A DNA stretch of 64,000 nt, taken from assembly GCF_030167915.1 (NCBI RefSeq), contig NZ_JARGNB010000010.1:1-64000 (forward strand). Direction: 5' to 3'. The notes beneath the pieces are model-generated. The model saw only the letters and a program-made list of their open reading frames with translations, was not told where the DNA came from and did not search any database. Position 1 is the stretch's first letter. Each line of letters starts with the position of its first letter. Positions 23,759 through 26,344 of this stretch are shown here, in pieces. The position numbers and the translations under genes were made by a program. The stretch is from Aquabacterium humicola (lineage in GTDB: Bacteria > Pseudomonadota > Gammaproteobacteria > Burkholderiales > Burkholderiaceae_C).

Positions 23759-24433
23759 ATGTTGATGAAACAGACCCCCGCCCACAGCATCGTCAACCAG
23801 GACCTGCTGGGCCTGATTCCGCCGAACGCACGCCGCGTCGTCGAGGTCGGCTGCATGCATGGCGCGATGGCCCAGGCCTACCGCGCAAAGAACCCGACGG
23901 CCGAGTACGTCGGCATCGACATCGACCCCGATTACGCCGCCGTCGCCGCGAGCCAGTGCACGCAGGCCCTGGCCGGCGACATCGAGACCTTCACGCCCGC
24001 GGCCTTCGACAAGCTGTTCCCGAGCGACGTGTGGATCTTCGGCGACTGCCTCGAGCACCTGCGCGACCCCTGGCGCATCGTCAAGACCATCCGCGCCGGC
24101 ATCGACGCCGACGGCTGCCTGCTGGCCTGCATCCCGAACGCCCAGCATTGGAGCGTGCAGATGCGCCTGGCGACCGGGCTCTTCCGCTACGAGGATTCGG
24201 GGCTGATGGACCGCACCCACGTGCGCTGGTTCACCCGCATCACGATGATGGAAATGTTCCTGCAGGCCGGCTGGAAGATCGAAACCGCCTTCAGCCGCCA
24301 GCTGCCGACGCAGGCGCCCGGCACGCTGATGGCCGGCATCCGCGCAATCGCCGAGACCGGCGGCACCGACCCCGACCAGGCCGAACGCGACGCGAACGCG
24401 TTCCAGTACCTCTTCAAGGTCACGCCGGCCTGA
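23759..24433 (+). CDS. SAM-dependent methyltransferase, class I
   Basis: A 224-residue methyltransferase. Motif I VVEVGCMHGAMAQAY is near residue 28, motif II YVGIDIDPDYA near 53, and FGDCLEHLRDPW near 95 is typical of the type 11/12 group that acts on glycans, lipids or small molecules. It begins the glycan region ahead of a TolC-like gene and pseB, so a sugar or aglycone substrate is plausible. ATG 23759 is used; the second Met two codons later is equally possible. It is followed by a 550-base stretch with large inverted repeats. Confidence 0.8.
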   Translation: MLMKQTPAHSIVNQDLLGLIPPNARRVVEVGCMHGAMAQAYRAKNPTAEYVGIDIDPDYAAVAASQCTQALAGDIETFTPAAFDKLFPSDVWIFGDCLEHLRDPWRIVKTIRAGIDADGCLLACIPNAQHWSVQMRLATGLFRYEDSGLMDRTHVRWFTRITMMEMFLQAGWKIETAFSRQLPTQAPGTLMAGIRAIAETGGTDPDQAERDANAFQYLFKVTPA

Positions 24434-24497
24434 TTGGCAAGTGGCCGTTCTCGGCACGGTTGCGGACATTCGCCGCGGCGTGCTTCGGTCTGCACAA

Positions 24498-24625
24498 GAT
24501 CAGGCCGGCGGGGCGCTCTGTTCCGCTCATGTCCCCCGGGCCGGGCTGCGTCGATATGCCCCGGGTCGTGCTCGGCCGGCCCTCCTCCTTGACTTCGCTC
24601 CACAGAGCGCCCCGCCGTCCTGATC
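24498..24625. repeat. Long stem-loop, member 1 of an inverted pair
   Basis: Arms 24498-24521 and 24602-24625 pair over 24 bp with one mismatch, enclosing an 80-base loop. The loop carries two blocks, 24524-24543 (20 nt) and 24574-24599 (26 nt), that recur exactly, in inverted orientation, in the loop of the element at 24670-24794. The ~30 bases between the blocks differ. The stem sequences of the two elements are unrelated. Confidence 0.8.
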
Positions 24626-24669
24626 CGCACCGCCCTGGCAGGCCATCGCATGCCGCGATGGTGATGGAG

Positions 24670-24794
24670 CCAAGGCCGCTGGGTGCCCGGCGTAGCGAAG
24701 TCAAGGAGGAGGGCCGGCCGGGATTGAGCCTGAGGTGTATCAGCGGCGCACGGCCCGGGGGACATGAGCGGAGCCGGGCACCCAGTGGCCTTGG
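24670..24794. repeat. Long stem-loop, member 2 of an inverted pair
   Basis: Arms 24670-24690 and 24774-24794 pair over 21 bp with one mismatch, enclosing an 83-base loop. Loop blocks 24694-24719 and 24751-24770 are exact reverse complements of the blocks in member 1, so the two loops could pair with each other. A small hairpin (24643-24661, CCATCGC / GCGATGG) lies between the members. Confidence 0.8.
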
Positions 24795-24897
24795 CGCGCT
24801 CGGTGCCGGCACGCAAGATCCGAGCACAAACGACCGCAACGGGCCGACACCCGTCGTCCGCCGGATGCCCGTCGGCACCGCCCGACGCAAATTGAGC

Positions 24898-24985: not shown

Positions 24986-26344
24986 ATGCCCCGCCTCCGC
25001 CGACTCCTCGCACCGCTGCAGCGCGGCGCCGTGGCGGCCGTGGTGTTGCTGGCGGCGGCGGTCGGGGCGGCGGCCCAGTCCACCTGCCCCGACGACGCCC
25101 CGCTGCCGTCGGGCAGCGTACCGCCCGAGCAGGCCCGCACGGCGCTGCGCACGCTGGTGCGCCAGGCCATCGAGCAGAGCCCGCAGGCCGGCGCCACCCG
25201 CCTGCTGGCCGAAGCCGCGCTCGACGACACCGCCGAGGCCCGCGCCGCGAAGTCGCCGCAGGCCTCGCTGAACGCCAGCATCGGCCCCAGCGTCGAGCGC
25301 GTGCGCAGCAAGAACGAAACCAATGCCGCGCAGGGCGGCGTCTCCGTGGCCATCAGCCAGCTGATCTGGGATGGCGGCCGCACCGACCGCCTGGTGAACT
25401 GGCGCGAGCGCCTCGCCGACGCCGCCCGCTTCGGCGACCTGAGCAGCCGCGAGGCGCTGGCGCTGTCCACCGTGTCGCTGGCGCTGGAGCGCAGCCGCTT
25501 CCGCCAGCAGGTGCAGGTCTATGGCCAGTACGTGCGCAAGATGCAGTGCCTGGCGAGGGCGCTCGAGCAGATCGTCGCCGCCGACCGCGGACGCCTGTCC
25601 GAGCTGGTGCAGGTGCGCAAGTCGCTGCAGCAGGCCGAGCTGTCGCGCACGCAGACCGAATCGCAGCTGCGCCAGGTGGAAGTGCGCCTGCGCCGGCTGG
25701 TCGGCGACACGCTGCCGGCCACCGAGCATGACTGGTCCGCGCTGCTGAGCGCCGTGCCCGACGTGCGGGGCCTGCAGGCCGACGCGCTGCGCTCGGCCGA
25801 GATCGCGCAGCTCGAGGCCAGCGCCGAAGCCGCGCAGCAGCTCGCGCGCTCGGTCGAAGCCAGCCACCAGCCGCGCGTCTCGTGGACCGGCGGCGCCAAT
25901 GCGGCGTCCGGCTTCGGCGGCACGATCGGCACCAACCATTCGAAGGGCCTGTCCTTCGGCCTCGCGATCAGCATCCCGCTGATCGACCAGGGCATCGCCG
26001 CCGCCTCGGCCGCCGCGAAGAAGCGCGCGCAGGCCGCGCAGCTGCAGCGCGACGAAGCGCTGCAGGCGCGCCGCGCCCGCATCGCCGAGGTGCACGAGCA
26101 GACCACCTCGTCCTTCGACCGTGCCGAACGTGTCGGCGCCGTGCTGCGCGACAGCGAGCGCCTGCGCGACTTCACGCTGCAGCAGTGGCAGCAGCTCGGC
26201 CGCCGGTCCCTGTTCGACGTGATGGCCGCCGAGAGCGACCACTACGGCCTGCGCATCTCGCTGGTCAATGCCCAGCACGACGGGCAGCAGATGAACGCGA
26301 TCCTGCTGTCCTTGGGGCAGGGGCTGCAGGGGTGGCTGCAATGA
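24986..26344 (+). CDS. TolC-family outer membrane channel protein
   Basis: A 452-residue protein. A signal peptide ends near residue 31 (VGAAAQS), followed by two related halves rich in long helices (AAKSPQASLNASIGPSVERV and LSFGLAISIPLIDQGIAAASAA), the TolC/OprM-type pattern with ~440-residue length. It should form the outer-membrane duct of a type I secretion or efflux system. No ABC transporter or membrane-fusion gene is adjacent. Between the methyltransferase and the glycan genes, export of a glycosylated or surface protein is possible but only inferred. Confidence 0.85.
   Translation: MPRLRRLLAPLQRGAVAAVVLLAAAVGAAAQSTCPDDAPLPSGSVPPEQARTALRTLVRQAIEQSPQAGATRLLAEAALDDTAEARAAKSPQASLNASIGPSVERVRSKNETNAAQGGVSVAISQLIWDGGRTDRLVNWRERLADAARFGDLSSREALALSTVSLALERSRFRQQVQVYGQYVRKMQCLARALEQIVAADRGRLSELVQVRKSLQQAELSRTQTESQLRQVEVRLRRLVGDTLPATEHDWSALLSAVPDVRGLQADALRSAEIAQLEASAEAAQQLARSVEASHQPRVSWTGGANAASGFGGTIGTNHSKGLSFGLAISIPLIDQGIAAASAAAKKRAQAAQLQRDEALQARRARIAEVHEQTTSSFDRAERVGAVLRDSERLRDFTLQQWQQLGRRSLFDVMAAESDHYGLRISLVNAQHDGQQMNAILLSLGQGLQGWLQ

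Follow-up and report, generated by a model that had tools for sequence, protein, structure and literature searches.

A mobile paired-hairpin repeat of environmental Burkholderiales whose purine strand may work as a folded single strand

What kind of element keeps the interior of its hairpins while the stems around it vary? The question is raised by a 64,000-nucleotide stretch of Aquabacterium humicola (contig NZ_JARGNB010000010.1, positions 1 to 64,000; hereafter the window), in which two long stem-loops sit between a reading frame at 23759-24433, which we take from reading its protein to be methyltransferase-like, and one at 24986-26344, the latter on the same strand; in the open reading frame listing, reading frames cross the unit mechanically. 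The original prediction placed stems of 24 and 21 bp here, and a repeat search recovers both. Hairpin 1 (24498-24625) has 24-nt arms at 24498-24521 and 24602-24625 that are 96% complementary with 80 nt between them, and hairpin 2 (24669-24795) lies where expected but is one base longer at each end, its 23-nt arms at 24669-24691 and 24773-24795 being 96% complementary with 81 nt between them. A spacer at 24626-24668, defined from the sequence, separates the two.

By convention we read each hairpin on its purine strand, which is the minus strand for hairpin 1 and the plus strand for hairpin 2. The predicted identical blocks in opposite orientation are borne out by the inverted arrangement and by exact core matches on both strands: in hairpin 1 the 5' side of the core lies at 24582-24599 (AGCGAAGTCAAGGAGGAG on the minus strand) and the 3' side at 24523-24538 (CGGGGGACATGAGCGG on the minus strand), and in hairpin 2 the corresponding sides lie at 24694-24711 and 24756-24771 on the plus strand, the latter also read from the sequence. 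A covariance model of the family matches 24500-24623 on the minus strand with 82.8 bits and 24670-24794 on the plus strand with 90.3 bits. The inner variable part of hairpin 1 (24539-24581, minus strand, GGCCGGCC...CCCGGCC) is 43 nt long, which exceeds the length in most relatives, and the window hairpins together with other copies in the same genome have an inner part expanded to 43-44 nt that is not closed by a GNA triloop. Outside the hairpins, CGGCACGGTTGCGGAC at 24452-24467 (plus strand) is an imperfect inverted copy of CGGCCCGTTGCGGTC at 24832-24846 (minus strand, exact match); both resemble the ends of other copies and probably mark the left and right ends of the unit.

The interior had been described as a pair of conserved loops. 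The conserved blocks are there, but the open loop is not, since inner pairs form in the RNA fold and covary across the family. Folding of each window hairpin as RNA against 200 dinucleotide shuffles gives z values of −5.55 to −7.83 on either strand, with none of the 200 shuffles as good, and the supposed loop contains the pairings GC/GC and GUC/GAC together with a GC-rich inner stem. In a permissive search of Rfam 15, which was used for all known-RNA searches, MIR918 appeared with E values of 1.8e-10 and 2e-9 (62.6 and 57.7 bits, far under the 268-bit cut-off), a long-palindrome artefact.

A search for further copies, each with inverted repeats of its own, finds the core blocks at 16 loci of the same genome and at least 120 stretches with the core in named genomes by an exact-pattern scan, mostly in Burkholderiales. 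At one own-genome locus (C1:982 kb) a 5' core block is missing, two loci carry an insertion within one hairpin, and a one-mismatch match of the 3' block outside any pair (L030) looks like chance. Among 80 titled matches, 55 are Burkholderiales by name or genus (some genera being assigned to the order on our own assumption), 10 are labelled beta-proteobacterium and 15 are others, namely Pseudomonadota and Gammaproteobacteria MAGs, one Rhodocyclales MAG (three rows), one Lysobacterales MAG and Sulfurisoma. The genera include Rubrivivax, Hydrogenophaga, Rhodoferax, Variovorax, Aquabacterium, Ideonella, Caldimonas, Ramlibacter, Paucibacter, Polaromonas, Albitalea and more. With the covariance model, and with the own genome included in each count, matches occur in 32 of 100 relatives, while samples of 399 genomes from the order and 369 from the class gave 18 (in three families) and 4, of which two belong to one family outside the order; at most 40, 10 and 11 candidates per genome were scored in the three sets, so that copy numbers per genome are lower bounds. 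The match outside the order at L319 has the same core with its lower part changed. Literature searches for this or similar elements, which left most subscription papers outside reach, turned up no description, and these mobile paired hairpins of environmental Burkholderiales apparently form a widespread family not described before. The Burkholderiales-1 motif, listed for that order and marked uncertain as RNA (PMC2864571, seen in part), can be likened to it by description only, and the main text of the paper on triplex repeats (PMC4666352) carries no mention of the Burkholderiales names looked for.

The copies share one architecture, which on the purine strand runs from an outer stem of at least 22 bp through two linking bases, AGCGAAGTMAAGGAGGAG, an inner stem-loop, CGGGGGACATGARCGG and one linking base back to the outer stem. 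The conserved core thus consists of two strands, AGCGAAGTMAAGGAGGAG and CGGGGGACATGARCGG, with variable stems on both sides of it, the outer one about 22 bp long, and what was called a conserved loop is an internal loop with structure of its own. Free sequence variation in the outer stem leaves its complementarity intact: when hairpins are located by the core alone, the best stem of 199 out of 248 falls at an identical offset. In an alignment of 44 sequences and 32 pairs, whose rows were preselected for at least 17 of 22 stem pairs formed, the covariation score is 0.861 compared with 0.181 after shuffling and at most 0.128 after sliding; 28 of the 32 pairs, among them all 22 outer pairs, have changed on both sides. 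Conserved inner blocks on variable stems, as predicted, are what the further copies show, and the reverse pattern of a conserved stem around a variable loop was looked for across the copies and not seen. The copies are dispersed and mainly intergenic, and their stems have been kept complementary through compensatory changes.

The core is itself paired. Mutual information between its two sides peaks, among all cross-side position pairs, at 6/10', 3/13' and 14/4'. Because the exact search pattern fixes the core in its own matches, core counts were taken from 65 partner hairpins outside the pattern, found by allowing at most 5 mismatches a side. In these, pair 6/10' is AT in 33, GC in 29 and CG in 3, and pair 14/4' is AG in 57, GA in 7 and AA in 1, an exchange of one purine-purine pair for the other. 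G12, G13, G3', G5' and G6' are invariant (65/65), with G15, G16 and G2' conserved in 64/65, and, speculatively, the G runs might come together across the inner stem in a two-tetrad quadruplex. Variants of the core also occur: same-genus genomes carry one near GCAGGTMAAGGAGGAG / CGGGGGACACGGAG on similar paired hairpins (L068, L072 and L074), with one copy reading AAAAGAGGAG.

Which strand of the hairpin does the folding can be read from its mismatches, since G·T and A·C would be equally common if the two strands were equivalent. On the purine strand of 188 hairpins the outer stem contains 355 G·T, 23 A·C, 57 A·G and 4 C·T mismatches, and the inner stem 48 G·T and 5 A·C. Taken hairpin by hairpin, G·T is in excess in 214 and A·C in 5, with 45 ties. 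Where the flanking genes are codirectional, the G·T to A·C count is 104:4 with the purine strand sense (52 hairpins) and 78:4 with it antisense (46 hairpins), and between convergent and divergent genes it is 90:3 (44 hairpins) and 7:1 (5 hairpins). A strong one-strand signature thus marks the purine strand in every arrangement of the neighbouring genes. The purine strand appears to fold largely irrespective of transcription, which argues for DNA.

The apical loops give a second indication. A well-paired inner stem is present in 215 of 254 distinct hairpins; these reduce to 168 distinct inner stems, of which 124 end in triloops. GNA accounts for 104 of these 124 distinct triloops, compared with 6 of 161 triloops in background hairpins of the same loci (perfect stems of at least 7 bp anywhere in the loci, a rough control only). 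GNA loops on G-C stems form exceptionally stable DNA mini-hairpins, as described in the part of the source seen (PMC4686876), and we take the excess as a DNA mini-hairpin signature that points to DNA over RNA. The internal pairing, the strand asymmetry and the GNA loops had all been missed in the original prediction. The working form would then be the folded purine strand, most likely as single-stranded DNA, with RNA as a possibility.

At one position a hairpin has been retained across genomes. In seven genomes (L096, L108, L150, L156, L188, L203 and L210, some showing only one gene whole) it lies in the same orientation, purine strand sense, between genes that we take from reading their proteins to be pccB-like and pccA-like, of a presumed propionyl-CoA carboxylase / methylmalonyl-CoA mutase cluster; at L096 a second hairpin adjoins it. 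Across the six genomes other than L096, two or more Watson-Crick forms are seen at 13 of 22 stem pairs, and the mismatches number 15 G·T and 1 A·C. Template-switching repair of the arms could, with no selection acting, keep the arms complementary but not the core, and for this reason we read the retention as selection; some old copies seem to be kept for a host function. Leaving aside units less than 700 bases from a locus end, 70 of 84 units in named loci overlap no called gene (65 of 84 with a cruder caller), and a constant neighbour gene was not found, the 14 largest clusters of 654 predicted proteins (crude gene calls) being common families only, presumably ABC transporter parts, Bug-type receptors, regulators and metabolic enzymes.

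These contexts bear on the strongest competing explanation, which is that the purine hairpin acts in transcripts as a protein-binding site, a processing site or an mRNA-stabilising structure, the inverted pair giving a transcript of either direction one purine hairpin. We consider it possible but rather unlikely. Among the mismatches G·U-like wobble predominates by far, and because G·T/G·U wobble suits RNA as well as DNA we count it against a single-stranded-DNA form; an inverted pair would also serve both directions of transcription. With the same units left aside near locus ends, 69 clean units with genes on both sides divide into 44 codirectional, 21 convergent and 4 divergent, compared with 144, 44 and 30 for all gaps of at least 150 bp in the same loci. 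The sense orientation at the pccB-pccA position in 7/7 genomes is what an RNA element might show, and in the 14 codirectional single hairpins the purine strand is sense in 10 and antisense in 4; both weigh against the DNA reading, as does the lack of a GNA triloop in the window hairpins. The nearly equal asymmetry of antisense and sense hairpins speaks, however, against action in transcripts, and the apical loops are mostly GNA triloops where those of RNA are usually tetraloops. Nor did any Rfam family reach its gathering score for the window or seven other loci.

The second part of the preferred reading, that the unit moves, was examined at four own-genome loci (the window, C34, C40 and C1:1077 kb) in comparison with a same-genus relative, G015. 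At the orthologous site of the window G015 has 12 bp in place of 438 bp, so that 24434-24871 is without counterpart there, and the C34 copy is missing both from G015 and from a second relative, G016 (71 bp compared with 594 bp, from coordinates only). The predicted mobility thus receives support from two of four loci. At the other two G015 holds a unit of its own type, in opposite orientation in the same intergenic region at C40 and in the same orientation at C1:1077 kb, which counts against the preferred reading. Absence at orthologous sites could instead reflect loss; the C34 copy is missing from two relatives. Presence and absence at the same site in related species thus stand beside retention in seven genomes at one gene-cluster position. 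G015 also contains, among the regions fetched, eight complete and nearly identical pairs of one subtype (AGCGAGGTAAGAGGAGGAGGGAGCGGAGCGACCGGGGGACACGAGCG; L225-L232) and a ninth unit of it cut by a contig end (L233). We read these near-identical units as a recent burst inside one genome, and the family as one that has recently spread inside genomes, some sites having undergone insertion or conversion more than once.

The ends of the element are less sharply defined. Inverted ends like CGGCCCGTTGCGG occur in many, not all, copies, and no clear target-site duplication was seen in the eight G015 copies or at the two empty sites, where the flanks have diverged; we count this against the preferred reading as well. 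No autonomous relative was noticed among eight regions fetched. When a larger gene-carrying element with the same ends was looked for, a second and larger repeat family was found instead, made of giant inverted hairpins (the one folded, at L311, is 239 nt long), with sequences such as GCGAAGCTAAATGGACGGCGC and with the same CGGCCCGTTGCGG ends. It occurs at L311, L312 and L315, for which Rfam gave no match, and at 12 of 19 fetched contig ends of the own genome, several of them picked for a pattern match (L291, L293-L295, L297-L299, L301-L303, L305 and L308), and assembly breaks at contig ends seem to be due to it. A different small palindromic repeat, GTGAGCCCGGACACAAACAGTCC..., seems to be seated after GGGGGA of the hairpin core in the same orientation in three copies (L001 in own C1 at about 214.9 kb, L028 in own C41 at about 260.7 kb and L286 in G015 C23 at about 27.4 kb), apparently by site-specific insertion into the hairpin.

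Integron attC sites and the ends of IS200/IS605 elements offer a precedent for one folded strand as the active substrate, with stem sequences that vary around a structure that is kept. The present element has variable stems as they do and would share the folded-strand substrate with them, but no attC-type boxes were recognised by eye, and its core lies inside the hairpin. With MITEs it has in common that it is short, multi-copy, present or absent between species and, in many copies, bounded by imperfect inverted ends (CGGCCCGTTGCGG), and it differs in that neither a target-site duplication nor an autonomous partner was seen and in that its interior holds conserved paired hairpins.

Membership in a REP/BIME family moved by a REP-associated tyrosine transposase (TnpA_REP/RAYT) is the next explanation to weigh, and we hold it improbable. 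Dispersed intergenic palindromes of alternating orientation are common to both, 73 of 78 neighbouring pairs in named loci having the inverted '-+' order here, and REP-related enzymes act on folded single-stranded DNA (PMC6006769, seen in part). By the definition in the same part of that source, a REP carries GTAG or GTGG 0-2 nt 5' of the hairpin, and its basal stem, 7-20 nt long, either carries a 2-5 nt loop or leads to a second stem through a 1-3 nt bulge (PMC6006769). The present element has a long 22-bp outer stem and a two-strand core, an internal loop of 18/16 nt rather than a bulge of 1-3 nt, and it lacks the GT[AG]G guide, with no excess of that motif in the 12 nt beside the 22-bp stem (15/201 compared with 17.2 shuffled). 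It numbers tens of copies, not hundreds. The own genome has no match to Y1_Tnp (PF01797), the RAYT domain searched for, which is missing from 9 of 32 genomes with the hairpin and from 22 of 68 without, so that there is no association. The repeat is thus a dispersed inverted mobile palindrome like a REP/BIME or a MITE, yet it fails the REP definition tested.

It had also been proposed that the two loops could pair with one another as DNA cruciforms or RNA. A joint structure, made of kissing RNA loops or of one large DNA cruciform, would on this view be the functional form. The cores are inverted copies and can pair, and the cross-paired RNA fold of the window unit is favoured at −220.4 kcal/mol compared with a sum of −179.1 kcal/mol for the separate hairpins. 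The unrelatedness of the two stems, as first described, can now be put more precisely: over 78 pairs in named loci, arm identity is 0.457 within a unit and 0.463 between units, and arms within a hairpin pair at 86%. Arms no more alike within than between units, inner stems that covary inside hairpins and the occurrence of single hairpins (20 of 69 clean units have no detected partner, and one single hairpin is retained at an orthologous position) make mutual pairing very improbable as the working form, and the claim is not upheld. The spacer has a median of 52 nt in the 73 '-+' pairs. One locus (L206:6171-6795) instead holds three tandem hairpin copies in one orientation, which repeat every 261 bases and whose stems are nearly identical. 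Bidirectional terminators or inert, passively spread palindromes would suit the rarity of units between divergent genes (4/69), but in the window no T run follows either stem on either strand and the conserved core and strand asymmetry would be left unexplained, so that we regard this as the least probable account.

The unit is thus a mobile repeat without coding function that spans about 390 bp and consists of two long, oppositely oriented hairpins between imperfect inverted ends. That its purine strand works folded as single-stranded DNA and is moved in trans is an account to which we give roughly even chances on sequence evidence. On this account the purine strand would fold when exposed as single-stranded DNA, for example in replication or as a transposition intermediate; a putative protein would bind the core, with the inner stem, often GNA-capped, serving as a rigid cap; and a putative enzyme acting on folded single strands would probably move the unit in trans. 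We suggest more tentatively that it may represent a new class of folded single-stranded-DNA mobile element. Its conserved purine core might form a two-tetrad quadruplex, or else a purine-purine helix that a GNA mini-hairpin closes; a single-strand enzyme unrelated to RAYT would move it, and the host would have adopted some copies.

Many dispersed bacterial palindromes are known merely as sequence repeats, and here the asymmetry of the mismatches indicates which strand folds. The G·T/A·C strand test, together with the GNA-loop test, could serve to find the functional strand of other palindromic repeats. If the account given above is true, the family would provide a defined DNA substrate with which to find a new single-strand-specific enzyme in environmental bacteria such as Hydrogenophaga, Variovorax, Rhodoferax and Rubrivivax.
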